From a virus: 64,000 nucleotides of DNA. This document shows positions 24,989 to 64,000 of the stretch, piece after piece. The stretch is from positions 62,001-126,000 of IMG/VR virus record IMGVR_UViG_3300024320_000003. The stretch is one strand, 5' to 3'. Positions within the stretch are counted from its first letter, which is position 1; each line of letters starts with the position of its first letter. A program made the translations under genes and the position numbers. The notes under the pieces were generated by a model. The model was not told the DNA's origin, did not search any database, and was given only the letters and a program-made list of their open reading frames with translations.

Positions 24989-24996
24989 GATATATA
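24989..24996 (+). promoter_or_regulatory. Candidate late promoter box GATATATA
   Basis: GATATATA in the 37-bp gap, 33 bp upstream of the ATG of the small glycine-zipper protein at 25022. Spacing matches the copies before 9662, 18041, 40498 and 63451. Confidence 0.5.
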
Positions 24997-25021: not shown

Positions 25022-25390
25022 ATGAAAACATTTTTTGAATACTTAAGCGAAGAGAATATAACTAAAGAGGAAATTACCCTTTTAGAAGAATCTCTGCAGT
25101 CAGAATGGACTGATGAATTAGAGCAAAAAGTAGATGCTGCTTTAGAAGAATTTACTAGACAGTATGCAAATGAAGATGGAACGTTTGATTTTGAAAGATT
25201 TAATGAGGAATTAACAAATGAAGGTTTCTTAGGTTCTATATTTGGTGGCCTTACAGGATTTGCTCTAGGTAAAACAATTGGTAAAACAGTTGCTAAAGTT
25301 CTAGGAATTCAGAAAGGTATTTTTTACGATTTATTAACCTCAAGATTAGTTGGCGCTGGATTAGGTGCGGCTATCGGAAAATCATTCTAA
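25022..25390 (+). CDS. Glycine-zipper protein with T4 internal-protein-like N-terminus
   Basis: 122 aa. The start MKTFFEYLSE closely resembles the T4 internal protein III capsid-targeting sequence (MKTYQEFIAE) and contains an L-x-E string (L8-S-E10) of the type cut by the T4 gp21 prohead protease. A second such string, L64-T-N-E67 followed by Gly68, precedes a hydrophobic Gly-rich segment (68-122: GSIFGGLTGFALG and GAGLGAAIG) with the GxxxG pattern of glycine zippers. The middle (11-67) is strongly acidic. I infer a packaged small protein whose acidic propeptide masks a membrane-active tail. A candidate late promoter lies 33 bp upstream. Confidence 0.5.
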   Translation: MKTFFEYLSEENITKEEITLLEESLQSEWTDELEQKVDAALEEFTRQYANEDGTFDFERFNEELTNEGFLGSIFGGLTGFALGKTIGKTVAKVLGIQKGIFYDLLTSRLVGAGLGAAIGKSF

Positions 25391-30705: not shown

Positions 30706-32832
30706 ATGGCACAAGTTAATAAAATTTCTTCATTTAAATCGTTTACAGAGATTAGAAAACAGGAATCTGTTAGTAAACTTAGAGAAGAAAACAATTTAAA
30801 AAGACAAGAATCAGTTGGTAAAATAGCTGCTATTCTAGATGAATTAGGATTAACTTCTTTCGAAGGTTTAGAAGAAGATCAGAAAGAATCAATTATCTCA
30901 AAAATATTTGGAGATGTTTCAGAAGAAGAAATAGCTGAAATAGAAGTAGAGGTAGAAGATGTTACTGCATCAGAAGAAGTTACTGAATCAGACGAACCAA
31001 AGTGTACTAATAAAAAAGGACATTTATATAAGCAAATTGACAAGGACGGAACGGTAGAATGCGTACACTGTGGTCTAAGAAATTCATTAAGCGAATCTTT
31101 AGTTACTGAAGCTAAGACCGTTACTAAAGCAGCAATTGAAGAAATTGGTGATTTTAGAGACAGTGAAGGATATTCTTCTAATCAATACTATATACTAGCT
31201 GACTTCATTGATGGAGAAATCACTATGAAAGATCTTTCAAAATTAGTAAAGTCTAAAGAAGTACAAAAAGAATTAAAGGGAGAAGATGAAATCGATATGG
31301 AACATATTGAAGAATTTTCAGAATCTTTAGTTACTGAAAAAGCTAAATTTAAAGTAGGAGATACTACTGAAAATTCAATTGGAAGCGAAGTTGAAATAAT
31401 CGCTATCGATAATTGGAGAAAGATATCAAAGCAATTTAAAAAAGAAATGGGATCAGATGCAGATTCATACGGATATGAAGATACTGCAAAGGGAGATTAC
31501 TATCTTGCTAAAATTGTTAAAAGTGAAGAAGGTGATGAAGGTGATTTAGGTATATTCCCAGTTGAATACGATCACGCAAATTACTGGGGATTAGGAGAAT
31601 CATTAATGAATGAGGCCTTAGATATTAAATATAAAAGAGATGCAAAGAAAGTATTAACTCAATACAATAAAATATTTGCAGAACTAGGAAGCTTAACAGC
31701 TGATAAAATTTCTCACTTAGGAGCTATTAAATATATTTACGCTGAAGCATTAACTGATGCTAATTTCCATAGAGAAAGAACAGCTACTGAAAAAATTATC
31801 AAAGGAAGATTAGGAAGTGTTACTGTTAATCCTTTAACTCTTGGTAAACAAGCTATTATAGTAGGAGCAAAGAAAATATCACAGATATTAGATGAGTATT
31901 ATTCTAGAATTTCAAATGCTGCCGGATGGTCAGGTATTGGAGTTGCTGAAGGCACTGCTCTATATTTAGAATCTATTGGTGAATCTAAACTTGCTGAAAA
32001 ATTATTAGCAGGATTTAACGCAGTAGAAGAATCAGTTAAGTTTCAATTAACTGAAGAAGAAATTTCTTTAAAAGAATCTAAATTTAACGAAGTAATCAAT
32101 TATGTAATTAATGAAGGAACTAGAGGTCAATTTGGTAAAATAGACAAGAAAGGAAATATTACTTCAGTATATACTCACTATGATTCATATCCTGAAAACA
32201 TGTTGCCTATTATTAAATCAACCTTTAAAAGTGGTAAAAATGTAGATTTTGTTCTTAAAAATGGAGATAATTCAGGTTTAGATAAAGACGTTAAGAAAAT
32301 TAATTTCTATGGCGGAGATGTTAATCTGATGAAAGGTAATGTTAAGAATATTAACAAATATATTAAAGATGCAAATTACGAAGGTGGTGCAGAATTCGTT
32401 TATTTATGGGATGAAGGTTCTAAAAAATGGATGATGGCAGATATCTACGGAGAAACTGGATTAGTTCCAGCATTTGAATCAAATATTTATGAAGGTACTA
32501 CTACATCTTTAGATGAATTTACAACTGACACTAAAAGTTACTCAGGTGCTTTAGCATATTCTTTTAAGAATCATAAAAAGAATTTTGATAAAAATATTAA
32601 AGTAAGTGTTGCTCTTGGAGATAAGTTTAAATTTACAAATGAAAAAGGAGGTATTGTAATGCAAAGGTCTCATGGTCCTGAATTTGACACAGTATGGTTA
32701 TCAGCTGATAAGAAAAAAGCTCAAAAAGTTGCAGATTGGCTTAAATCAGAAGGTGCTGAGATTGTTCTTTTCGGCCCAAAGACTAGATCATTTGTTGGTA
32801 GCAAAGAAGAATTTATCGATAGATATTTATAA
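30706..32832 (+). CDS. Multi-module polyprotein-like protein with repeated ESLVTE sites (putative internal cargo)
   Basis: 708 aa with no overall family match. Segments: acidic N-terminus with a SFKSFTEIRKQE start; a zinc-ribbon-like patch (Cys100, His106, Cys119, Cys122); then compact modules separated by near-identical linkers SESLVTE-A (129-136), SESLVTE-K (205-212) and ESLMNE-A (298-304), with a further VINE-G at 467-471. Each linker ends in a hydrophobic-x-Glu followed by a small or charged residue, resembling sites of the T4 gp21 prohead protease. The C-terminal module (about 600-708) ends SKEEFIDRYL. I infer a packaged polyprotein cut into four or five pieces; the module functions are unknown. 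A terminator follows. Confidence 0.55.
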   Translation: MAQVNKISSFKSFTEIRKQESVSKLREENNLKRQESVGKIAAILDELGLTSFEGLEEDQKESIISKIFGDVSEEEIAEIEVEVEDVTASEEVTESDEPKCTNKKGHLYKQIDKDGTVECVHCGLRNSLSESLVTEAKTVTKAAIEEIGDFRDSEGYSSNQYYILADFIDGEITMKDLSKLVKSKEVQKELKGEDEIDMEHIEEFSESLVTEKAKFKVGDTTENSIGSEVEIIAIDNWRKISKQFKKEMGSDADSYGYEDTAKGDYYLAKIVKSEEGDEGDLGIFPVEYDHANYWGLGESLMNEALDIKYKRDAKKVLTQYNKIFAELGSLTADKISHLGAIKYIYAEALTDANFHRERTATEKIIKGRLGSVTVNPLTLGKQAIIVGAKKISQILDEYYSRISNAAGWSGIGVAEGTALYLESIGESKLAEKLLAGFNAVEESVKFQLTEEEISLKESKFNEVINYVINEGTRGQFGKIDKKGNITSVYTHYDSYPENMLPIIKSTFKSGKNVDFVLKNGDNSGLDKDVKKINFYGGDVNLMKGNVKNINKYIKDANYEGGAEFVYLWDEGSKKWMMADIYGETGLVPAFESNIYEGTTTSLDEFTTDTKSYSGALAYSFKNHKKNFDKNIKVSVALGDKFKFTNEKGGIVMQRSHGPEFDTVWLSADKKKAQKVADWLKSEGAEIVLFGPKTRSFVGSKEEFIDRYL

Positions 32833-32850
32833 TAAAAAATAAAAATAAAC

Positions 32851-32880
32851 TGACCTGGATTTTTCCGGGTCAAGTTTTTT
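32851..32880 (+). terminator. Rho-independent terminator
   Basis: TGACCTGG (32851-32858) pairs with CCGGGTCA (32865-32872), with one G-T pair, around an ATTTTT loop. AGTTTTTT follows. It closes the 708-aa gene's transcript. Confidence 0.75.
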
Positions 32881-32899
32881 AATTATATTAGCTATATAC

Positions 32900-34270
32900 A
32901 TGGAACTAAATAACAACTTTGTAGATTTTATTCAACATCACGCAGATGCACAAGGCATGACCAGAGAGGAATATGTTGCACATTATATGAGTGAAAATAA
33001 GAGTAAAGTTTTATCATTTGACGAATATATCGTTGAAAAATACAATACACTTAAAGAAGAATTAATCTTAGAAGGCGGTGCAGCTGGTCACATGTCTCAT
33101 CCTTTCGATGAAAAAGATTTAACATTCGCAGATTTTAAAAAGATCGTAACGTCCGGTCTTCAAGGAGAATTAAACTTTGAAGAGGTAGCCACTGAAAAAA
33201 CAGACGGTCAAAATCTATTAGCAACCGTAAAAAACGGAGTTACGATGTTTTCTAGAAATAAAGGTCAATTAATTAGTCCCGTTGATTTAGACGGTATTAT
33301 AGAAATGTTTGAAAAGCATGAGGTACCTTTAGTGCGAGAAACATACGTGTTTGCAGCTAAAGATCTAAATGAAGCTCTTCCAAAAATTAAAGATCAGTCC
33401 ATATTTAATGACGGTAAAGATTTTATAAATATAGAATTAATCTATTCTAAAAACCCAAATGTAATCTATTACGAAAGAGATGTTCTTCAATTTCACGATA
33501 TTCAAGAAACTGATGGGAATGGTAATATTACAGGATCTAGAAAAATAGCAGGAGAATTAGTCAAAGCTTTAAAGGAAGTAGATGCCGATGTTCAAAAGAC
33601 ATTTACAATAATTCCTCCTCAGATTTTAAAACTAGGTAAAGATATTAATTTTGATAAAAATCAAGCTAAATTTATAAAGCAGATTGAAAAATTAAGAGAT
33701 CGTTATAACTTAACAGACGGTGACGAAGTTTCTAGATATCATGAAATGTGGTGGAGAGAAACAATAGATGCAAATTTCCCAGATTTACAACAAGACTATA
33801 AGGAAGGTTTATTATTAAGATGGGCTTATGGAGATAAAAAGTCTTTAAATATGAGATCACTTGCAAAGGAGATAGGAAAAGATGAAGCTGCTTCTGTTAA
33901 GAAATTTGACAAAGAAGATGTTAAAAAGAAATATAAAGAAAACATTAGACCGTTTGAAGATTTATTTTTAGAACTAGGGTCTATAATTCTTATGAATGCT
34001 TCTAATTTTGTAGCTGCAAATCCAGACAAAGAGATGCAAAGACTACATAATCAAATTAGATCAGAATCTGAAAAGATCAAAAAAGATGGAAGCGTTACTC
34101 AGATCGAAAAGGTAATGAAAGAACTAGAGAGATTAGATAGAATTGGAGGAGTAGAATCTATCATACCAACTGAAGGAATAGTTTTTGTATATAAAGGAAA
34201 GACTATGAAACTAACAGGTACTTTTGCTGCTATCAATCAGCTGATGGGAATCATAAAGTACGGAAGATAA
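32900..34270 (+). CDS. Nucleotidyltransferase-fold nucleic-acid ligase with internal-protein-like leader
   Basis: 456 aa. The leader (1-58) contains LSFDEYIVE-K (39-47) and ELILE-GG (54-60), both hydrophobic-x-Glu sites like those of T4 capsid-packaged proteins. The enzyme follows: motif I EKTDGQN with adenylated Lys100, a motif III-like FINIELIYS, motif IV EGIVFVYKG (Glu425) and motif V KLTG (Lys437). This matches the covalent nucleotidyltransferase superfamily (ATP-dependent DNA/RNA ligases). Whether the substrate is RNA or DNA cannot be read from the sequence. It lies 10 bp ahead of a second ligase fused to a nucleotidyltransferase. Confidence 0.7.
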   Translation: MELNNNFVDFIQHHADAQGMTREEYVAHYMSENKSKVLSFDEYIVEKYNTLKEELILEGGAAGHMSHPFDEKDLTFADFKKIVTSGLQGELNFEEVATEKTDGQNLLATVKNGVTMFSRNKGQLISPVDLDGIIEMFEKHEVPLVRETYVFAAKDLNEALPKIKDQSIFNDGKDFINIELIYSKNPNVIYYERDVLQFHDIQETDGNGNITGSRKIAGELVKALKEVDADVQKTFTIIPPQILKLGKDINFDKNQAKFIKQIEKLRDRYNLTDGDEVSRYHEMWWRETIDANFPDLQQDYKEGLLLRWAYGDKKSLNMRSLAKEIGKDEAASVKKFDKEDVKKKYKENIRPFEDLFLELGSIILMNASNFVAANPDKEMQRLHNQIRSESEKIKKDGSVTQIEKVMKELERLDRIGGVESIIPTEGIVFVYKGKTMKLTGTFAAINQLMGIIKYGR

Positions 34271-34280
34271 ATAATATAAT

Positions 34281-36152
34281 ATGGCACTTAAAAAACTAAG
34301 ACAAGTATTTCAGGAAACTAATATCAATGCATTTCAAGATATGTTGAATAGCAGGGTTCTAGTAACTGAAAAAATACAAGGAGCTTCATTTCACGTTAGA
34401 AGAAACCAGACTAAATTTGAATATTACAAATCTGGAGATTCTAGAATGAACATGATAGACAGAACAATAGTAGGTTTATATGAAACAGGTGTCAAGCACA
34501 TCCAAAGTTTAGATCCTAGTATAAAGGAACAAATGCCACATGATTGGAAATTTGGTTTTGAATATTTACCTGAATTAAACGTGTCAGAATATAAATATAC
34601 TAAACTACCTAAAAACAATTTAATACTTACGCACATTCAAACTATGAATGAGTCAGGTAAGATTAGAAAAACAATTAGCGATCCAATTATATTAAATAAA
34701 TGGGCAAAGATATTAGAGGTTCAAGGACCTAGCATTGTGTTTGATGGTATGCTATCTCAAATGCAAAAAGAAGAATTAATAAGTGTTTTATCTATGTCAG
34801 ATAAGGAGTTTTCTGAAGCATTTGATTATGATCCAAATACAGATGCAAGATTACCTTTCACTCAAAAGATGATTAAGACATTTAATCCAAATGCAGTTTC
34901 TCCTACGTTAAATGAAGACTTTGAAGTAGAAATTGACGGATTAATAGTTTCTTTTATTGATGAGAAAAAATCTAGATCTTTTAAATTAGAAGATTTTACA
35001 AGAACTGTTAGTGAAAATAAGAGATCAAGCCACATGTATCAAATTACTATTGCTGGTCTTATTGAATTTATTTCTACATTTGAAATGAAAGACATTCAAC
35101 TAAATGAAGAAACAGCAGACTGGAGATATATTGAATTAATGTCAGTGATGTTTAATACGTATGTTAAAGAACACTCTGCTAAGTTTATTGGTGTTAACTT
35201 TGAATCAGCTGATTTTGCAGATTCAGATTCCTTTAAACTAAATACTAAATACATTAAGAACGAGACCACTCTTTCTTATGTTGAAAACGAAATACTTGCA
35301 GAATTATTTAAAATAACTTTAGGTTCTTTTAGAAAAAAGAGAAGCAAGGAAAGCGATATCATAAATGCAGAAATGTTAGAGCATTTAAATCAAATAGTAG
35401 AAACTATAGATAAGAAAGTATTTGTAGAGAATACCGATGAAAATTCCATATACGACTTTAATAATTTCATATTACATAATAAAGTAAAGACAAGTGTTAA
35501 TTTAAATGAAGCACTTAAAGTAGATCATCCTGAACAAGGAGGAGAATTAGTAAATATGTTTGTTGGTAGATTCCAACCATTTACACTTGGACATGCTAAA
35601 GTATTAGAAACTATACACAAAGAAAATGGATATCCTGTGGTTGTTTTATTAGTAAAAGCAAAGAATAAGAAAAAGGAAGATGCATTTAAAAGACCTTATG
35701 ATGAGAAGACACAATTAGATATGTTTAAGGCGGTTCAAAAACAATATCCATTCTTAAAAGAAATCTTTGTAATTCCAACCGGAGGTATTGATACAATGTT
35801 CAATGCAATGAGACCAACTTATGAACCCGTATTATGGGGAACAGGAAGCGATAGAATGAAAACTTACGGATTCCAAGTAAATAAAGATTCTTATAGAGAA
35901 GATCTTGGAGTTAGGAGTGATTTTGGATTATTTGAAATTCCAAGAACAGACAATAATATTTCAGCGACTCAGGTTAGAAACGCAATGCTAGACGGAGATG
36001 AAGGATTATTTAAGTCAACAACACCCAAAGCATTACATAAAATGTATGGCGAACTTAAGAAAAAATTAGAAGATTCAGTAGGTACTTCAGAATCAAATGA
36101 AGTTGCTGAATCATTATTAACATTTAAACAATTTTTAGAAAACAATGGATAG
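34281..36152 (+). CDS. RNA-ligase-like domain fused to a GRFQPF/ISATQVR nucleotidyltransferase
   Basis: 623 aa. The N-terminal half is a ligase-type domain: motif I TEKIQGASFH (Lys31), motif III KFGFEYLPE, motif IV EIDGLIVSF and motif V RSFKLED. A linker carries VNLNE-ALKVD (L408-N-E410/A411), a gp21-type site. The C-terminal domain is a HUP nucleotidyltransferase with GRFQPFTLGH (429-438) and ISATQVR (560-566), as in NMN adenylyltransferase-like phage enzymes. The tail is ESLLTFKQFLENNG. Protease cutting at E410 would free two enzymes. The stop lies 8 bp inside the next gene. Possible roles are RNA repair combined with NAD or nucleotide metabolism; the fusion is unfamiliar to me. Confidence 0.72.
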   Translation: MALKKLRQVFQETNINAFQDMLNSRVLVTEKIQGASFHVRRNQTKFEYYKSGDSRMNMIDRTIVGLYETGVKHIQSLDPSIKEQMPHDWKFGFEYLPELNVSEYKYTKLPKNNLILTHIQTMNESGKIRKTISDPIILNKWAKILEVQGPSIVFDGMLSQMQKEELISVLSMSDKEFSEAFDYDPNTDARLPFTQKMIKTFNPNAVSPTLNEDFEVEIDGLIVSFIDEKKSRSFKLEDFTRTVSENKRSSHMYQITIAGLIEFISTFEMKDIQLNEETADWRYIELMSVMFNTYVKEHSAKFIGVNFESADFADSDSFKLNTKYIKNETTLSYVENEILAELFKITLGSFRKKRSKESDIINAEMLEHLNQIVETIDKKVFVENTDENSIYDFNNFILHNKVKTSVNLNEALKVDHPEQGGELVNMFVGRFQPFTLGHAKVLETIHKENGYPVVVLLVKAKNKKKEDAFKRPYDEKTQLDMFKAVQKQYPFLKEIFVIPTGGIDTMFNAMRPTYEPVLWGTGSDRMKTYGFQVNKDSYREDLGVRSDFGLFEIPRTDNNISATQVRNAMLDGDEGLFKSTTPKALHKMYGELKKKLEDSVGTSESNEVAESLLTFKQFLENNG

Positions 36153-37224
36153 GTACGATTTTGAAAGAGCACTACATAGTGCTGCAAAAACCAACGCTGA
36201 AAATGAAGCGTTAATTATAGAATCCTATATTGGAGTTGCAACGACCGGAAGTAAATCTGCCCAACAGAATTTATTTAATTCAATTAATAGAACATTTAAA
36301 AAGAATAAGTGTCCATGGCAAGGTGTTAAGTTTACTTCAACACAGGATGTTAAACAACAACCTGATGGCAGGTTATGGCTTTCTAAAATGGATGACGATA
36401 CATTCGGAGTAGTTTTTCAATATTTAATGTTAAATAAAAGCGAAGCAAACGAATTGTTTAATATTGGAAGAGACGATAATGGAATTGGTGCTGGAGAAAT
36501 AATGCTAGCGTATATTGTAGAAAATATAAAAATAGGTGGAGGTGCGGCCGATACTGACTTAGAATTATATAATGAAAGGTGGTCACCAATTAAACCACCC
36601 CTTGGTAAATGTGAGTTAAAAGAAGCTCAAATGTCAAAGGGCATGTTACAAAATTGGAGAACAGGTGCAAAACACCAGGGAATTAATAGTACTTATGTAC
36701 CGAAGTTAACGGCATTATATGACGCAGTAAAATATAATATTGAAGAAATCAACCCGGACGGAGATGGTAAAGATATGGCTGCCGGTGGAGGTTGGATAAA
36801 TGAATGGGGAACTGTAGGTGGAAAAAGATTTAAGCATATTCAAAATTTAACTAAGACAGATATTCAGGCCCTTTCTTCTAGTGAAAGAGATTTTAAAATA
36901 GGTCCTGGAGATAAAGATAACGGCGCATTAGTAATTAAATTTAATGACGTAGAATTAGGAAAGCTAAGTGACTCTAAAACTGCAGAAAAAATTAAAAGTA
37001 TAATAGAGACTGAGCCTTCCGTTAGAACATTTACTGAAATACAAGACGATGTAATTTCAGCAGTAGGAGATATACCTACTCCATTCCTTTTTATAGAGTC
37101 TAAAGATCATGAAATAGTAGCTTTTCACTATTACAAGAAATTACCTGGAAAAACTAGCGAATTACAAATATATTCTATTACACAAGGTAAATTTAAATAT
37201 AAAATAAAGCCTAACCGAGTTTAA
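36145..37224 (+). CDS. Unknown protein, possible PD-(D/E)XK-like nuclease core
   Basis: 359 aa. The N-terminus has ENEALIIESYIGVA, echoing the ES-type strings of its neighbours. In the middle, GIGAGEIMLAYIVE, then GGGAADTDLEL and KCELKEAQ give a G-x-G-E ... D ... E-x-K spacing seen in restriction-endonuclease folds. This is a weak pattern match only. The C-terminus is a beta-rich domain ending KYKIKPNRV. It overlaps the ligase fusion by 8 bp and lies in the putative internal-protein block. Confidence 0.45.
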   Translation: MDRYDFERALHSAAKTNAENEALIIESYIGVATTGSKSAQQNLFNSINRTFKKNKCPWQGVKFTSTQDVKQQPDGRLWLSKMDDDTFGVVFQYLMLNKSEANELFNIGRDDNGIGAGEIMLAYIVENIKIGGGAADTDLELYNERWSPIKPPLGKCELKEAQMSKGMLQNWRTGAKHQGINSTYVPKLTALYDAVKYNIEEINPDGDGKDMAAGGGWINEWGTVGGKRFKHIQNLTKTDIQALSSSERDFKIGPGDKDNGALVIKFNDVELGKLSDSKTAEKIKSIIETEPSVRTFTEIQDDVISAVGDIPTPFLFIESKDHEIVAFHYYKKLPGKTSELQIYSITQGKFKYKIKPNRV

Positions 37225-37244
37225 ATAAACAAATACAAATAAAA

Positions 37245-40200
37245 ATGAGCACTAAAAAAACATTCGAAAGCTTTGTAAATTCAATGAACGAAAACGTTGA
37301 TTTATATAAAGTATACAAAAAGGTTTCTGGGAAATATTCCTTGAGAAAGCCTTCTTATTGGGGAGATCTATTTAACCAAAGAGCTTCTATTCCATATAGA
37401 GAATTAACTAAATATGATAAAGAATTACATTCCTTAGACGTATACACTACTAAAGAATTAGGATGTCATAACGAATATCCATTACAATCTAACTTTAAAG
37501 TTCAAGTGCCACAGGTATTTGTATTATATTGTAACACTGAATCAGGTGAGCTTGGAGAGTATTATGGAATGAGTATTCTTGTAAATACAGAAGGAGCAAC
37601 ATATCCAAGATATGCATGTGGTATGCCAGATTTCGAACCAGAATTACATAACTTTGTAAATGGAATTCCTGAAAGCTATTTAAACATTGTAACGACTGGT
37701 GCTCAATTGTTACATGAACAGATGATAGTTGAAGGTCAATTTTCATGGCTTACATCCGATACAAACACACAAATAGGTTCTGAAAGACAGAACATGATTA
37801 CAGTATTTATGTATGATAATATGGGTAACAAGTGGACGGAAAAGGATTATGAAGGATATGGTGAATTTGGTGGAATGGATTATTATGATCTTGTTGCTAC
37901 AATGAATGGATATACTGAAGAAGATGTTAAAACAATGAAAGGTTCATTTAAAGAATTAAGACAACTTGGTATTGATTTAGCATTCGGTAAAATAAAGACC
38001 AAAGATAAAAAGAAAAAGACATTATTCCCTGCATTAGTTGAAGATCCAAGATTTAATTGGAAAAGACATGACTTTACTGAAGAAGCAGAATCTGATCCAA
38101 ATCAATCATGGTATCAAGAACCTGAGTATGATGATTATGAAGATGATGACGATTACGAAAACGGATGGTATGAATCAAAGGTTACTGAAGCCAAAAAGCT
38201 TACAATTAAAGATGTTGAAAAGGCATGGGATTTTTCTTATGGTGAAGATTTTGAATATGAATATGGTAGTGTCTATGTTGAAATCATGGGAAAATATAAA
38301 GGTAAAATTACTAAAGATGAATTAGCTAAAATATGGGACGACAAGTATGGTGAAGATTTACAAAGTGAACATGGTGGATTCTTTGATAAGCTAGACGAAA
38401 ATTTAAATGAAGCTACTGTAGTAATGGATGCAATAGATCCTAAATCAAAAACACTCAAAAAGCTTTTAAAGAAATATAATGTTAAAATGAAAGTTTTAAC
38501 AATGAACGGCCCTGGTGGCAATTGGCCAGAAGTTGAAATGACAGGTTCAAGAGAAGATTTACAATCAGTATTAGCCGATCCTAATGGATGGGACGATCCT
38601 GAATTAGGAGAATACATTGAAGAATCTAATATATTAGAAGCTAGATCTATTAACAAGATTTCAAAGGAATTTGGAGAAACAGTTAATAAGATGAAAGATA
38701 TTGTAAAGATATACATCGCTGCGGAAGATGGAAGTGATGAGAAAGCAGCAACTAGACAGCAGCTAATAGATTTAACAGCAAAAAAGAAAGCTCTTACAAA
38801 TGAACTAGATGATGCAGTAGCTGGTAAAAACAAAGATGTAAAATTAGTTATCAGTGAGGGTGTTATGTCTGACATTCACCAAATGATAGGTAATCACAAA
38901 TCATTTGATACTTTTCAGAAAGAATTCTTTAAAGAATACGGACATAAGAAAGTAATGAAGAAAACTCCAGAGTTTTTAGAATGGTTAAAGGCACTATATA
39001 ATGATTTTGAATATACGTCAGGTGAAGCTGTTGAAGAAAGGTATACTAAAAAGTCATTATTAAAAAAATTAGGAGATGCAGATGATGCAATGATTCAAAC
39101 CGGAAACGGAAAAGAATATATCATTTATAATCCTGATTCTAATAACGATGACAATGCTGCAATGTGGCATGATAAATCAGTATTTGCACTAGATCAAGAC
39201 GGTGGAGAGCATGAAATAGCATATAAGGATATAGGGCTAGTAATGGTAGAATCAGCAGTTAATGAAGATGTGTATGCAGACTTAGAAGACACTATTTCTA
39301 ATATGGAATTTGATGCATATCAAAACTTAGCATCTGAATTTGGTATAGATGCTGAAGATCCCAACGAAATGATGGACTTTATTCAAAATGAACTTGACAA
39401 GAAGGGTGCTAAACTCTTAATCAAGAACATTGAAAAAGGAGTTTATGAATCATTAGTTAATGAAAAGGACGACGCCGGTGACCACTTAGATAATCTTGCA
39501 GATTTAGTAGGTAAAGCTAAAGATTTCTTTGCAATCGGTAAAGAATTAAAAGCAGGTAAATACAAATACGACTATAGTGATAGTATGATGCCAATGTATA
39601 CGATAAAAGCAGATGGTTTTAAATTTGCAATACTTAACAAAAGATATGTTGACGGCGGCGATAGAGAAGTTGGAGAGATTGCTATTGGCCTAATGGAATC
39701 AATGGTTATTGAAGCTAAGGGTTTTAAAAACGATGAAGATTTCGAAGAATTTTTAAAAGAAATCGATGCTATGCCAGAAAGAGCAGTTAGAAAGATAATG
39801 GGTAAAGAATATATCGATACTCCTGGTTTTTATCAAGATGAAAAAGACAATTATGATGATGTAATTGACTTCATGATTTCAAACATGGGTGCAAATATTT
39901 ATCACCAATTAGAACAGTGGTGGGAATTAAACGTAATGAAACCGGGTCTTAGAGAATCTAAAATTCAAATAAAAAGAAGATATACCGATAATCATCCTGC
40001 ACAAACTTCAGGTAGAACTGCTAAAGTCAGAAACGCAATGATCGAGGCATTAGCGGATGGTGTATTAACAGAAGAAGAATTCAATAATATTCTAAAAGAA
40101 AAATCAATCGATAATAAAAGATGGATGAGAAGAAATTCTAAATACTTTACAGTAAGTGAAAATGGAATTGGTCTTTCTAAATTTGGAAAAAGAATATTAA

Positions 40201-40463
40201 CTGGAATTAAACCAGTTGTTAGTTTAACATTAGAATCTTTTATTAACGAAGCTAATTATATTAAATTTAAAGGAAAGAAAGTAGATATTAGTTCATTAGA
40301 AATGGAAGATGTTGATATGAAAGATTATCCAGATTTCACAGATGCATTCTTTAGTTATGGTGAATATTCTAATGGAAAAGAAATGACTGACGAAGAATTA
40401 TCAGATTTCACAGATGATAATCCAGACTTAGCTAATGAATTAGCACATGATTCCTTACATTAA
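37245..40463 (+). CDS. 1072-aa multi-module polyprotein-like protein with up to nine gp21-like sites
   Basis: N-terminus KKTFESFVNSMNE resembles a T4 capsid-targeting leader. Candidate sites, each a hydrophobic-x-Glu: VTE-A (313-316), LNE-A (387-390), ILE-A (463-466), ISE-G (536-539), VNE-D (672-675), VNE-K (738-741), VIE-A (821-824), INE-A (1000-1003). Several are preceded by Y/M/L-E-S. The pieces between them are 60-300 aa and look like separate small domains. One (316-389) is an imperfect tandem duplication (KAWDFSYGEDF and KIWDDKYGEDL, 36 residues apart). Another (about 940-1000) has KRWMRRNSKYF, a basic winged-helix-like string. I recognise no enzyme. I infer a prohead-packaged polyprotein delivering several host-directed factors. 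Confidence 0.55.
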   Translation: MSTKKTFESFVNSMNENVDLYKVYKKVSGKYSLRKPSYWGDLFNQRASIPYRELTKYDKELHSLDVYTTKELGCHNEYPLQSNFKVQVPQVFVLYCNTESGELGEYYGMSILVNTEGATYPRYACGMPDFEPELHNFVNGIPESYLNIVTTGAQLLHEQMIVEGQFSWLTSDTNTQIGSERQNMITVFMYDNMGNKWTEKDYEGYGEFGGMDYYDLVATMNGYTEEDVKTMKGSFKELRQLGIDLAFGKIKTKDKKKKTLFPALVEDPRFNWKRHDFTEEAESDPNQSWYQEPEYDDYEDDDDYENGWYESKVTEAKKLTIKDVEKAWDFSYGEDFEYEYGSVYVEIMGKYKGKITKDELAKIWDDKYGEDLQSEHGGFFDKLDENLNEATVVMDAIDPKSKTLKKLLKKYNVKMKVLTMNGPGGNWPEVEMTGSREDLQSVLADPNGWDDPELGEYIEESNILEARSINKISKEFGETVNKMKDIVKIYIAAEDGSDEKAATRQQLIDLTAKKKALTNELDDAVAGKNKDVKLVISEGVMSDIHQMIGNHKSFDTFQKEFFKEYGHKKVMKKTPEFLEWLKALYNDFEYTSGEAVEERYTKKSLLKKLGDADDAMIQTGNGKEYIIYNPDSNNDDNAAMWHDKSVFALDQDGGEHEIAYKDIGLVMVESAVNEDVYADLEDTISNMEFDAYQNLASEFGIDAEDPNEMMDFIQNELDKKGAKLLIKNIEKGVYESLVNEKDDAGDHLDNLADLVGKAKDFFAIGKELKAGKYKYDYSDSMMPMYTIKADGFKFAILNKRYVDGGDREVGEIAIGLMESMVIEAKGFKNDEDFEEFLKEIDAMPERAVRKIMGKEYIDTPGFYQDEKDNYDDVIDFMISNMGANIYHQLEQWWELNVMKPGLRESKIQIKRRYTDNHPAQTSGRTAKVRNAMIEALADGVLTEEEFNNILKEKSIDNKRWMRRNSKYFTVSENGIGLSKFGKRILTGIKPVVSLTLESFINEANYIKFKGKKVDISSLEMEDVDMKDYPDFTDAFFSYGEYSNGKEMTDEELSDFTDDNPDLANELAHDSLH

Positions 40464-40465
40464 AA

Positions 40466-40473
40466 GATATATA
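40466..40473 (+). promoter_or_regulatory. Candidate late promoter box GATATATA
   Basis: TAAAAGATATATACT, 32 bp upstream of the ATG of the 444-aa internal-type protein; same extended context as the copy at 18010. Confidence 0.5.
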
Positions 40474-40497
40474 CTATTATAAACAAAACAATATAAA

Positions 40498-41832
40498 ATG
40501 AAACTATATACTAACTTCGATAATTTTATCAATGAAGCAAAGGTTATGAAGCAGAAAGATACTGCTAAAATAGCAAAAAAATTAGCAGCTGCTCTTTCAA
40601 AAGCAGACGGAAAAGAATTCACAATTTCTAAAAATTCATTAGATTCCGGTGGTTTTGATCTAGATATGGATGGAGACGAATATGCAGGAGGAACTTATTT
40701 TATTGGTGATGCTGGTGAAATAGTAAACGCAGCAACACATAATGATGTATATGGTCACATGGACGATAGCGAAGCTGAATTAGTTAAAACAATTAAAAAG
40801 GGTAAATTTGCAAAATACAGAGCAACTGAATCTTTAGAACTTAATGAAGCTCTAGCTTCTTCCAAGTTAAGAGGATTAATAGACATCAAAAAAGGTGGTA
40901 AGGAATTAATTAAAGGTATATACGGTCTTGCTAAAGTAGCACTAGATAAAGTTACCGATGATATGATAATTTCTAATAGCAACCCAGTTGAAGTTTATAA
41001 GAAAGCAAAAACATTCGGAAACGTAATTGTATTTTGGATTTCTAGAAATGAAAAAGAAAATGAATATGCTCCTTCTTCCGGAAGATATGTTGAAATGATT
41101 CCTGGAAATTGTTTATTAGCTGTTTCTAATGGAAAAAATGAAATGTTTCAGAACGATTCAATATGGAATAGAAACAGCGACACAATAGGTGGTAAGAAAA
41201 ACACAAGAAGACTTAAGAACATGGGTAAATACCCTGGATCTAAAGATACTGTCGGTGTTAACAAATCACACAACCAATATAGTGGAACGGGATTAGGTAA
41301 CATTAAAAGAATTGCGGAAATGTCTGACGAATGTTACATTATTAATTTAGACACATTAAGAGCTTCTTTATCTACCGATGATAAGACATCTGCAAGAGCA
41401 GAGGCAAAATCTGGAGCTACTGCACTTACAAACCCTAAGAAAATCAAAGAGGATAACTTAACAAGGTATAACGATATTCTTGCGAAGAAAGCTGATAACC
41501 CAGATAAAATAGACAAGAAAGTTAAAGAAATTATCGAAGATGCACACCAATTCTTAATGGCTGGTTTAGCTAAAAAAGAATTAGGAAACTATAACGAATT
41601 AACAATAGGAAAAGACCCTAAAGGAAGAGAAATTAGACCTAGAGATTTAACCAATTATATTGCAAATATATTGTCAGATTATCAAGGATATGTTTCAGCA
41701 TACGTTAATATGAAAACTGAAGAAGAAAAATTCGGTTCATCAAGTTCTTGGTATATGAGAGATGCTAAGCGTAAAGCACTAGAGCTTAAGCAAAGAATGG
41801 CTAAATGGGATAATAAAAACATAGTTTGGTAA
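40498..41832 (+). CDS. Putative internal protein with INE-A leader and second LNE-A site
   Basis: 444 aa. It begins MKLYTNFDNFINEA, matching the T4 internal-protein leader pattern (MKTYQEFIAEA): I11-N-E13/A14. A second string, ESLELNE-A (111-118), separates a ~100-residue module (14-117, with DLDMDGDEYAGGTYFI) from a 327-residue C-terminal domain. That domain is rich in Lys, Asn and Tyr and has GLIDIKKGGKELIKGIYG near its start; I do not recognise it. It is preceded by a late-promoter-like box and followed one base after its stop by the next such gene. Confidence 0.55.
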   Translation: MKLYTNFDNFINEAKVMKQKDTAKIAKKLAAALSKADGKEFTISKNSLDSGGFDLDMDGDEYAGGTYFIGDAGEIVNAATHNDVYGHMDDSEAELVKTIKKGKFAKYRATESLELNEALASSKLRGLIDIKKGGKELIKGIYGLAKVALDKVTDDMIISNSNPVEVYKKAKTFGNVIVFWISRNEKENEYAPSSGRYVEMIPGNCLLAVSNGKNEMFQNDSIWNRNSDTIGGKKNTRRLKNMGKYPGSKDTVGVNKSHNQYSGTGLGNIKRIAEMSDECYIINLDTLRASLSTDDKTSARAEAKSGATALTNPKKIKEDNLTRYNDILAKKADNPDKIDKKVKEIIEDAHQFLMAGLAKKELGNYNELTIGKDPKGREIRPRDLTNYIANILSDYQGYVSAYVNMKTEEEKFGSSSSWYMRDAKRKALELKQRMAKWDNKNIVW

Positions 41833-41833
41833 A

Positions 41834-42151
41834 ATGAAAAAAGTAAAATTATTTGAACAATACATTAATGAATCAGCTATCGATTTATTAGCAGATGAAA
41901 TAGAAGATGCAAAAGCATTTGATGCGTTTTCAGATGGACAATCAGTTCAAGCAAGATCTACTAAAAAAACATGGGACGATGGTGTTCCAGTTTTAAAGTA
42001 TATTGCTAGAGCTCCAAAAAAATCTGTTAAATTACCTAAGAAATTTAAAGTAGTAGACGACACTAAATATGGATGGTGGTATTTACAAGTATCAGGAGTA
42101 TGGTATGGCATCGAACAAGATGATTATGGAACTCCACCATTTGAATATTAA
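41834..42151 (+). CDS. Small putative internal protein with INE-S leader
   Basis: 105 aa. MKKVKLFEQYINES matches the capsid-targeting pattern, with I11-N-E13 followed by Ser14. The rest is a basic linker and a small Trp/Tyr-rich beta domain (KYGWWYLQVSGVWYGIEQD). Its size recalls T4 internal proteins such as IPI. Function unknown. It lies one base after the 444-aa gene and three bases before the 623-aa one. Confidence 0.5.
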   Translation: MKKVKLFEQYINESAIDLLADEIEDAKAFDAFSDGQSVQARSTKKTWDDGVPVLKYIARAPKKSVKLPKKFKVVDDTKYGWWYLQVSGVWYGIEQDDYGTPPFEY

Positions 42152-42154
42152 GAT

Positions 42155-44026
42155 ATGGAATTAAACGAAAACGAAAACTTATCACTTGGCGATATGGCCG
42201 GAATGGGAGAAGTCTCTTTACCATCTGAAACATCAGTTGGATCAGGGGATATTCCAGCCGGAAAAGGAGATGCCGAAGAAGAGTATAAGAAGAAGAGAAA
42301 TAAAAAGAAACAACGCGAAATGAAAAACATTATATCATTTGAATCTTTCGGATCACTTGATGAAGGTAAAACAATATCTTCTTCTAAAATATCTATGATG
42401 GGTGCAAGAGTTCTTAATAAAATTAGCATCGGTACTATATTTGATACAGAAGATGGAAACTATGAAATTACGGATTATGGCCGACAGGCAAATGCATTTA
42501 AAGAATTTGAAGCAGAACATAATGGTAAAAAAGTAAAGGTAAAATTAACTGCAATGTATGGTGTTAAGTTAGAAGTAACTGACGATGTACGCAGCGCTAG
42601 ATTTAATAAAGAAGTAAAGCTAAATTCTATTATTTTAGAATCGGTTAATGAAGGTAAGTTTGACGGTATTGCAGATTTAGTAAAATCTTTACATTTTGAA
42701 ATGGATCCTAAAACTGCCGAAGAAAAGAAGATTGAAATAGGTTACAGACAAGGAGAAGTAACAAAGCGTAAACAAATTGAAGGTGGTAATTATTCACTAA
42801 GAAGATTCAGAAAAGAAATTAAATATTGGGACGGTAATAAAAGAGATCAAGAATGGGCAGAAGGCGTATTTGCTGGTCCAGACCATTATAATACTGTAAA
42901 GTCAACATTAGGAGCTGGTCCTCATAAGAAAGCTGTTAAGAAAGTAAGATGGACTCAAAGGAAATATGACCAATGGTTAGAAGACGTTGCATCAAACGAC
43001 GGTTGGAAGAATGCCTATGATATGGCACAAAACGCCCAATTCGAACCAGGTCTTATTGATTGGGTTGAGAAAAACTTTAGAGGTGATGATCCAATGCAAA
43101 GAATCCAATGGGATATTGAAGCATTTGCAGAATCAACATCCACTAAACTGACTCATTTAAAATCTATTAATGAAGATGTTATTTTAGATAAAGAAACAGA
43201 TGATGAAATATTCGATTCAGAAACATACTATACAATAAGTAAGGTTTTAGCTATTGCTAGAAAATCTAAAGAATGTAAAGAAGCATACAAAAGAGAATCT
43301 AACTTCGGTAATGGTTTACAAATGGCTGAACGTTTAAAAAAGGAATTTCCAAAAATTCAATTCAAATGTAGAGTTTATAGATCAGAATGGAATTATGGAG
43401 GTAACTTATGTTTGAGCATTGAGCTTCGAGGAAAATCATGGAAACATGAAGTATTTAAGTTTCAGTCTAACAACTCAACGCGTAAACCTAATTATTCATT
43501 TGCAAAATTATTCAATGGAACCAAAAAAGTATCAACTGGAAAGGTAGAAGATGATTGGGGTATGGGAACTGTACATGGTTCTTATCAATCTATTTCTAGC
43601 TTTGATAAATTTATGGATGATGTAGTTGGAGTTTTCAAAGATTACAAAAGAGTAAACGGAGTAGAATTTGACATGAAAACTATCCTAGCAGGTTTTAAAG
43701 CTAATGATAAAATATTAGCCGAATGGACTAGATTAAAGCCAAGAATCGAAAAGCAATATGACATCGCAAAGGCAAGCGGAAGAAAAGCACATAGAAGAAT
43801 AGAATTAAGAATGCCTTATATTAGAACGGCTGAAAAGAAAGTTTATTATAAGACTGACGAGCCAAGAGAATTAAGACATCCTGATGAATATGGAGAAAGC
43901 GCTTATAATATTATAGATGGAAGAGATTACGCTAAGTACGAAGCTGCTCAAGCTAAGGTTTCAGATATGATTGAAAAGTTTTGTAAGAAACATAACTTTG
44001 AATTTGTATGGGCTGCTAGCTGGTAA
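42155..44026 (+). CDS. Putative internal multi-module protein, 623 aa
   Basis: The N-terminal 55 residues are an acidic Gly/Ser-rich segment (LGDMAGMGEVSLPSE, VGSGDIPAGKGDAEEE) ending in a Lys/Arg-rich helix. A second leader-like start follows at Met56: MKNIISFESFGSLDE-G (56-71). Further sites: ESVNE-G (162-167) and KSINE-D (336-341). The modules between these are 95-285 aa; the last (341-623) contains basic stretches (RRIELRMPYIRTAEKK) and ends CKKHNFEFVWAASW. No enzyme motif recognised. Met56 could be the true start of the internal protein, with residues 1-55 as an extension. A strong terminator lies downstream. Confidence 0.5.
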   Translation: MELNENENLSLGDMAGMGEVSLPSETSVGSGDIPAGKGDAEEEYKKKRNKKKQREMKNIISFESFGSLDEGKTISSSKISMMGARVLNKISIGTIFDTEDGNYEITDYGRQANAFKEFEAEHNGKKVKVKLTAMYGVKLEVTDDVRSARFNKEVKLNSIILESVNEGKFDGIADLVKSLHFEMDPKTAEEKKIEIGYRQGEVTKRKQIEGGNYSLRRFRKEIKYWDGNKRDQEWAEGVFAGPDHYNTVKSTLGAGPHKKAVKKVRWTQRKYDQWLEDVASNDGWKNAYDMAQNAQFEPGLIDWVEKNFRGDDPMQRIQWDIEAFAESTSTKLTHLKSINEDVILDKETDDEIFDSETYYTISKVLAIARKSKECKEAYKRESNFGNGLQMAERLKKEFPKIQFKCRVYRSEWNYGGNLCLSIELRGKSWKHEVFKFQSNNSTRKPNYSFAKLFNGTKKVSTGKVEDDWGMGTVHGSYQSISSFDKFMDDVVGVFKDYKRVNGVEFDMKTILAGFKANDKILAEWTRLKPRIEKQYDIAKASGRKAHRRIELRMPYIRTAEKKVYYKTDEPRELRHPDEYGESAYNIIDGRDYAKYEAAQAKVSDMIEKFCKKHNFEFVWAASW

Positions 44027-63450: not shown

Positions 63451-64000
63451 ATGAATAATAAAATCTTAAAATACGATCAGTATTTAAATGAAGCTATGAA
63501 AACGGGTTCAATAGAACTTGTAAATCCTTCTCTAAATAAAGCAGCTACGATAATCGCAAGATTTGTAAATAAGAAAACAAAGAAGGACTTTAAAAAGTTT
63601 CCATTTGAAATGATAACTGATATGGGTTCTGGAGTAATGTTTTACTCAAGTAAAGGTACAGAGGCATTTATGGTAACTCCCGCTGCTGCAAAAAACCCTG
63701 GTATTGTAGGTTCTATAATCTATTTCTCAGATGCAGCAGACGCTAAATCTGATTTTTCTATTTCATCTGAAACATTCCCAATTGTTAAATTAGTTGGAGA
63801 ATTCGTTAGATTAATGGATAAAAAATACGTTGCATCTATACAAGAGTCAATGTTATTAGAAAGAAGAACTAAAAGAGCATTCTCTAAAGAAGAAATTAAA
63901 ATGATCGAGGCTAAATTAGCAGCTGGAATGGCCGTTAATAAAATAGCAGACGAATTAGAAGTTCCTTATTCTTCAATCATGAATATTAAGAAAGGACAGC
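63451..64000 (+). CDS. Putative internal protein with LNE-A leader and C-terminal HTH (partial)
   Basis: Open to the window edge; at least 183 residues. N-terminus MNNKILKYDQYLNEA has the capsid-targeting pattern, with L12-N-E14/A15. A globular domain of about 115 residues follows (FPFEMITDMGSGVMFYSSKG), then a second ES-type string, QESMLLE-R (131-138). After it comes a helix-turn-helix: FSKEEIKMIEAKLAAGMAVN, then KIADELEVPYSSIMNIKKG. If cut at Glu137 the DNA-binding domain would be released. It has its own late-promoter-like box. Confidence 0.6.
   Translation, partial: MNNKILKYDQYLNEAMKTGSIELVNPSLNKAATIIARFVNKKTKKDFKKFPFEMITDMGSGVMFYSSKGTEAFMVTPAAAKNPGIVGSIIYFSDAADAKSDFSISSETFPIVKLVGEFVRLMDKKYVASIQESMLLERRTKRAFSKEEIKMIEAKLAAGMAVNKIADELEVPYSSIMNIKKGQ

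Follow-up and report, generated by a model that had tools for sequence, protein, structure and literature searches.

The DNA analysed here, called the window, is a stretch of 64,000 nucleotides (bases 62001-126000) of a linear virus record of 178,737 bases, IMGVR_UViG_3300024320_000003, from a marine T4-like phage. A 13-kb block of the window, at positions 30706-44026, encodes proteins with a short leader of the kind found on the internal proteins of T4, and the larger members contain repeated short strings ending in Glu. Our reading is that a T4-type internal-protein system has probably been expanded here into a modular system of head-packaged polyproteins, processed by the prohead protease. 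The original prediction, made from the letters of the window, had seen in the block a suite of proteins packaged in the head, cut there and injected with the genome. The present comparison of sequences partly supports this interpretation, and the internal strings are more interesting than it had claimed, since they form the boundaries of shuffled modules. Positions are those of the window; G000 marks coordinates on the whole record, and L-numbers are the sequence pieces or contigs compared (L002, L007 and L008 being parts of the record). Open reading frames (ORFs) were listed for the whole record, 202 of them of at least 60 amino acids (aa).

Linkers inside the large proteins

Hydrophobic-x-Glu strings, often preceded by Glu-Ser, had been reported to recur in the larger proteins of the block. 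This is true of the Glu-Ser form: the block members counted, with 4,390 residues in all, contain 12 copies of ES-x-[VILMF]-x-E (0.6 expected), and the remaining 51,631 residues of the record contain 6 (6.0 expected). It does not extend to the generic form, as [ILV]-x-E by itself, the T4-type motif, shows no more than a weak excess (94 in the block, 76 expected) and was rejected as evidence. The linkers of two proteins, called polyproteins A and B, are given below.

30706..32832, + strand: polyprotein A, 708 aa; aromatic pair F10/F13 near the N-terminus, the targeting half only; linkers ESLVTE (aa 130), ESLVTE (aa 206), ESLMNE (aa 298) and ESNIYE (aa 591); bead (domain between two linkers) at aa 471-581, a phrog_1987 domain
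37245..40463, + strand: polyprotein B, 1072 aa; leader-like KKTFESFVNSMNE at aa 4-16; linkers ESKVTE (aa 310), ESNILE (aa 460), ESAVNE (aa 669), ESLVNE (aa 735), ESMVIE (aa 818) and ESFINE (aa 997)
39249..39266, + strand: linker ESAVNE of polyprotein B, left end of a bead replacement relative to L018

Related contigs yielded 52 dereplicated proteins with at least two linkers and up to seven (173 linkers, 7.6 expected), at a median spacing of 83 residues. Because these polyproteins were chosen for having linkers, the unselected count in the block is the cleaner test. Most typically a linker reads ESVV(N/T)E, and the residue after it is Ala, Ser, Gly or Lys; the P3 residue is V in 131 of 192 linkers, I in 40 and Ala in 3.

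Exchange of modules at the linkers

Segments between two linkers were taken as seed modules and mapped onto all proteins, giving 38 module clusters; clustering of pre-cut segments was abandoned, because degenerate linkers were missed and everything merged into one giant cluster. Module S3 is present in two different genes, encoding polyprotein A of the window and the MSTKK polyprotein of L060, and module S0 stands in three tandem copies in L069. Module S37 comes directly after an N-terminal leader in one phage and after an internal site in another; S17 and S36 also follow leaders. Likewise, the KIQIKRKYTE module stands behind leader MNKFEDFLKEG in a gene of its own in L035 and follows an internal LRES in the window. 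A domain of the G000:44338 protein forms a free leadered protein of 104 aa in L159, and L146 and L072 have it as a bead of a polyprotein. This interchange of leader and linker before the same module, found by comparison across contigs, counts in favour of the polyprotein reading. The string [VILMN]xE was found within 4 residues of the module start in 81 of the 93 non-seed copies (23 expected), and 27% of partial-homology ends lay at most 5 residues from a linker, against 6% for random positions, in a set of pairs that are not independent. One replacement could be followed at the DNA level. In the gene for polyprotein B, the window and L018 are 95.5% identical up to gene base 2023, the ESAVNE codons ending at 2022, and there identity breaks off, other beads having taken the place of a single one. 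Identity, now 93.5%, is regained within a diverged homologous bead, which means that the replacement does not have its right end at a linker. Together, these comparisons show that linkers are the module boundaries of shuffled polyproteins, where small modules are swapped, duplicated or moved between genes.

Swaps at linkers are also what a recombination seam alone would give. The linkers might then be flexible joints or seams in large proteins that stay intact, perhaps packaged through their leader and uncut between modules. We consider this unlikely, as a seam needs no fixed residues, yet V or I at P3 and Glu at P1 are kept exactly, though both the DNA and the neighbours vary, and the N-terminal leaders end in the same [ILVM]xE pattern. 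The start of a domain in polyprotein A also speaks against intact proteins: F10 and Glu303 are invariant among 34 homologues, and an AlphaFold model built with these homologues has a confident domain, residues about 305-443, that begins directly after Glu303 of ESLMNE/A (the slash marks the predicted cut). Confidence is low on either side, and because the alignment is shallow only this domain of the model is meaningful; a fold search with the model gave no match.

A leader of the T4 internal-protein type

We defined the strict leader core as [FY]xx[FYW][ILVM]xE within the first 22 residues. It was found in 8 of the 202 ORFs, where shuffling gives 0.33 (maximum 4 in 2000) and internal windows 1.5. 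About ten more genes of the record have a degenerate or displaced leader, including those at 30706, 37245, 42155 (from Met56) and 32900 (residue 38), as well as G000:43802, where Asp stands in place of the expected Glu. The prediction of a set larger than that of T4 is supported, with about 18 leadered genes here for a handful there. A looser regular expression was dropped as uninformative (17 matches, 11 expected from internal windows). The seven strings from which the leader had been proposed all lie where they had been placed, including the one from Met56 of the 42155 ORF, but the pattern K-x-F/Y-x-x-F/Y-(I/L/V)-x-E, said to fit them all, was too generous a claim: five have the core [FY]xx[FY][ILV]xE, K-x is not general, and the strings at 37245 (TFESFVNSMNE) and 42155 (SFESFGSLDE) keep the aromatic pair with the Glu shifted. 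The leadered genes of the window, besides the two polyproteins, are as follows.

25022..25390, + strand: 122-aa protein, leader MKTFFEYLSE; strict leader kept in 31 of 36 homologues
32900..34270, + strand: 456-aa conserved protein with a ligase-like KTDG motif; leader at aa 38-46, second site ELILE/G at aa 54-58
33011..33037, + strand: leader LSFDEYIVE of the 32900 protein; strict leader in homologues
40498..41832, + strand: 444-aa protein, leader MKLYTNFDNFINE/A; internal site ESLELNE/A at aa 111-117, which reads ESVVNE in L065
41834..42151, + strand: 105-aa protein, leader MKKVKLFEQYINE/S; single-module member
42155..44026, + strand: 623-aa protein with a capsid N-arm-like N-terminal peptide (GMGEVSLP...GSGD), leader from Met56 (MKNIISFESFGSLDE) and site ESVNE/G at aa 162-166
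63451..64000, + strand: AAA-ATPase-like protein, 445 aa, continuing beyond the window; leader MNNKILKYDQYLNE/A; weak AAA_16 match (E=2.7e-4, below cut-off)

When related contigs were added to the record, 181 of 1409 non-identical ORFs had a strict leader, for 7.5 expected; proteins with this tag are thus numerous in the window phage and in dozens of its relatives. It nearly always starts at residue 4 or 7, and the leaders are about 10-14 residues long. Conservation is complete in the 32900 family, where all 48 homologues have the strict leader (0.7 in shuffled sequences); in an alignment of 35 sequences the N-terminal region is variable, and leader Glu46 and second-site Glu58 are invariant, with the leader aromatics kept. 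Mutagenesis of T4 IPIII assigned targeting mainly to residues 4 and 7 and processing to residues 8 and 10; when position 10 was Asp, targeting was still possible and processing was inhibited (PMC9026906). The leader spacing i, i+3, i+4, i+6 (aromatic, aromatic, hydrophobic, Glu) equals these IPIII determinants. As a positive control, the regular expression was applied to 113 kb of T4, where it matched IPII, IPIII and one small ORF among 182 (0.4 expected). The leader is most likely a capsid targeting sequence (CTS) of the T4 internal-protein type, in agreement with the original prediction.

Some leaders stand on enzymes that could work in the infected cell, and one may imagine that the leader serves localisation or assembly away from the head, for example in another phage compartment or with a common partner, and that its likeness to T4 is convergent. 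This explanation is the least probable of those considered: the spacing equals the T4 determinants, the gp21/gp23 pair is co-encoded, leader genes have a late-promoter-like element (see below), and the very same expression recovers T4 internal proteins.

The uncultured 462-kb phage LR756500 has 21 strict leaders for 2.7 expected, but no polyproteins of the block's kind, an indication that the leader predates the polyproteins. In PTm1 (100 kb) and PAU (50 kb), sampled as relatives, the strict leader was not in excess. Two PAU proteins annotated 'internal capsid protein' (L201, 16051 and 23313) begin with a variant leader, MKxLxxLYExKLNEAS, which likewise ends in LNE/A.

Targeting and cleavage halves found apart

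Proteins of the 34281 family have no N-terminal leader. Of 54 homologues, 46 have F..F[ILVM] at the C-terminus (0.6 expected). The residue at i+6 of this tag, counted in 47 homologues, is always Asn, Lys or Ser and never Glu.

34281..36152, + strand: 623-aa protein, cytidylyltransferase domain in the C-terminal half (PF01467, E=8.8e-9)
36114..36149, + strand: C-terminal tag LLTFKQFLENNG of the 34281 protein, a targeting half in which Asn replaces the cleavage Glu

The linkers appear to be the converse case: an aromatic residue is present at i in 21% and at i+3 in 4% of them, which means that the targeting half is mostly lost. The linkers keep i+4 (V/I/L/M) and i+6 (E), which the search pattern imposes in part; it puts no such constraint on the aromatic positions. 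Linkers and C-terminal tag would then be two natural separation-of-function patterns, matching the T4 split between targeting and processing.

Prohead protease and capsid genes of the same phage

A gp21-like prohead protease, which had been suggested as something to look for in the rest of the genome, was found, together with the major capsid gene. Both lie 6-8 kb beyond the window end.

G000:132108-134168: 686-aa protein with an S77 prohead protease domain (gp21-like; PF03420, over cut-off)
G000:134324-135763: Gp23-family major capsid protein (PF07068, E=6e-45, over cut-off)

The GELDHP and SSR motifs of the S77 protein align with T4 gp21, and its gene was found in 10 of 17 related polyprotein contigs, many of them fragments. 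Judged by the capsid protein, the nearest named records are LR756500 (52%), the Lak phages (about 38%), and jumbo phages of Tenacibaculum and Sphingomonas (about 31%).

In T4, IPI, IPII, IPIII and Alt have a CTS and are processed by gp21; the short leader with its i, i+3, i+4, i+6 pattern is common to both systems (PMC9026906, PMC3012670), as are the gp21-like and gp23-like genes and the combination of a conserved leader with diverse cargo. Unlike in T4, the cargo here includes enzymes and multi-bead polyproteins, repeated internal sites resemble leader copies reduced to the cleavage half, and one family has a C-terminal targeting-only tag. The giant phages phiKZ, 201phi2-1 and SPN3US resemble the present case in that their prohead proteases cut many head proteins after Glu at a short motif, with several cut sites per propeptide (PMC10052503, PMC5694885). 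In the parts of these reports consulted, however, long propeptides are shredded at A-x-E or S/A-x-E, and module shuffling between sites is not described; the linkers here differ from these motifs, P3 being mainly V or I.

Polyvalent proteins (Iyer et al. 2017, PMC5512222) likewise unite several unrelated domains in one injected polypeptide, for which processing into units has been proposed, and multiple distinct domains per polypeptide were found in the 52 multi-linker proteins. Since multidomain injected proteins are common in phages (PMC5512222), the polyproteins could be of this classical kind, injected as one chain or cut after entry by their own peptidase domain or a host protease. This seems to us improbable. 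The processing of polyvalent proteins is attributed to an embedded metallopeptidase domain, whereas here the linkers are uniform and the candidate for cutting them is the structural prohead protease, with small beads swapped singly; Pfam and PHROGs searches on the window polyproteins and ten related ones found no known polyvalent domain and no embedded metallopeptidase or other peptidase domain; and the phage has both a T4-type leader and a gp21-type protease, with beads lying between uniform sites.

Proposed mechanism and its weak points

By analogy with T4, late-made proteins would dock on the prohead core through the aromatics at i and i+3 of their N-terminal leader and in this way become enclosed in the head. 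The activated gp21-like S77 protease would then cut after the leader Glu ([ILVM]-x-E) and the linker Glu (ESVV[N/T]E/A). One targeting tag could in this way bring a string of small domains into the head, where cleavage would free separate proteins. The freed modules and the leadered enzymes would enter the host together with the DNA and work early in infection, their most likely targets being host defences. This role is proposed from the turnover of the modules here and from T4, whose internal proteins are described as defence proteins of great diversity in which the targeting sequence alone is conserved (PMC3012670). We lean, with some reserve, towards a closer analogy with the polyproteins of RNA viruses, in which the phage clade builds open-ended cassettes: each small domain between two prohead-protease sites would be a separately released, head-packaged and injected effector, each gene would have one targeting tag, and recombination at the codons of the cleavage sites would pass effectors from gene to gene and from phage to phage.

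Several observations weigh against a head-packaged, protease-cut system. Just 13 of the 52 polyproteins have a strict leader, and the aromatic pair is present in 39 of 52, compared with 35% of all ORFs. The S77 gene was not found in 7 of the 17 polyprotein contigs, though most of these are fragments. We infer the specificity of the S77 protease for the leader and linker Glu, and alignment could not fix the exact cleavage site of the capsid protein. Most beads match nothing in Pfam and PHROGs, and no virion proteomics or cleavage data for this clade were found in the literature.

In the open-access literature searched, no paper was found on prohead-protease polyproteins with shuffled beads, and their novelty is provisional because the search was limited to that literature; polyvalent proteins with embedded peptidases (PMC5512222) and the multi-cut propeptides of giant phages (PMC10052503) come closest in concept. 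If correct, the rule 'leader is packed, linker is cut' would predict from sequence, for a large group of marine phages, which unknown proteins enter the host with the DNA, and dozens of small modules would become candidate anti-defence effectors. The purpose of T4-like internal proteins, an old question, would become testable over many modules. The system shows a natural split between the targeting and cutting halves of the T4 signal and hints at how one tag could load many proteins into a head. It has the look of a plug-in arrangement by which further injected proteins could be added to the particle.

Upstream elements

Neither a Bacteroidota-type TAnnTTTG nor the exact T4 TATAAATA gave a signal upstream of leader genes, and the search therefore turned to GATATATA, a late-promoter-like sequence. 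The whole record has 31 copies on the coding strand and 2 on the other, and 25 copies lie at most 90 bases before a start, most of them at -28 to -49. In the window, on the + strand, they are:

24989..24996, + strand: GATATATA, before the 25022 gene
30664, 40466 and 63416, + strand: further copies of GATATATA

The element also precedes the protease-scaffold gene and genes that resemble, in position and size, those for sheath (888 aa), tube and large tail proteins. At this distance 7 of the 18 leader genes have it, compared with 11 of the 169 other genes (p=4e-4). We regard GATATATA as a candidate late promoter of this phage group. Late expression of the suite, part of the original prediction, may be indicated by this element, which leader genes share with head and tail genes. 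Other frequent intergenic 8-mers overlap each other (TTTGCTTA, CTTATATT, ATATTAGT, TATTAGTA, and also TTTTTTTA-TTTATCTC), each occurring in 9-15 of 61 upstream regions; they suggest a second repeated upstream element.

Cargo and remaining features

The leadered or tagged enzymes are an AAA-type ATPase, identified by a weak match, an ATP-grasp protein, to which several models fit below their cut-offs, the cytidylyltransferase-like 34281 protein and the KTDG protein at 32900. The cargo had been said to span ligases and a nucleotidyltransferase. PF01467 in the 34281 protein agrees with the latter; the ligases fare less well. The 32900 protein may be ligase-like from its KTDG motif, but it has no significant family match, and the top hit of its fold search, T4 RNA ligase 1, is not significant (E=0.38); the true DNA ligase at G000:174421 has a degenerate leader only. 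The phrog_1987 bead of polyprotein A exists as a separate protein in other phages: in Streptococcus phages it has 114 aa and is encoded next to the portal gene, and in Prochlorococcus phage P-SSM2 its length is about 150 aa. Beads may thus be acquired from a pool that phages share.

One ORF of the block is of uncertain membership of the system:

36145..37224, + strand: 359-aa ORF without clear leader or linkers

The first ~55 residues of the 42155 family (window 42155-42319) have the capsid N-arm motif GMGxVxLP...GSGDxP and an acidic/lysine-rich stretch, followed by the internal Met and the leader. A similar start is seen in homologues in L157, L175, L087, L158, L069 and L184, and the motif is present in the capsid proteins of the window phage, LR756500, PTm1 and PAU. 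This peptide is possibly a capsid-arm mimic or an alternative start. In several relatives (L069, L133, L160, L173, L179, L184) the 42155-family genes have a MPSTSKAQQRLMGMAYAYKKGEL... domain of about 55 residues fused in front.

Among named phages, a near-identity DNA search with the block and a translated search with polyprotein B gave no match. Scanning of genome contigs for a host gave a single distant fragment in one metagenome-assembled genome (MAG) and nothing else. Seven tRNA genes (Arg twice, Ser, Asp, Leu, Lys, Ile) are located at L002 4909, L007 9576-9742 and L008 4559-5035, and none in the window. Finally, the genes of G000:1-9000 (L002) are mostly on the minus strand, unlike those of the remaining record, and this region is perhaps a different module or an assembly join.

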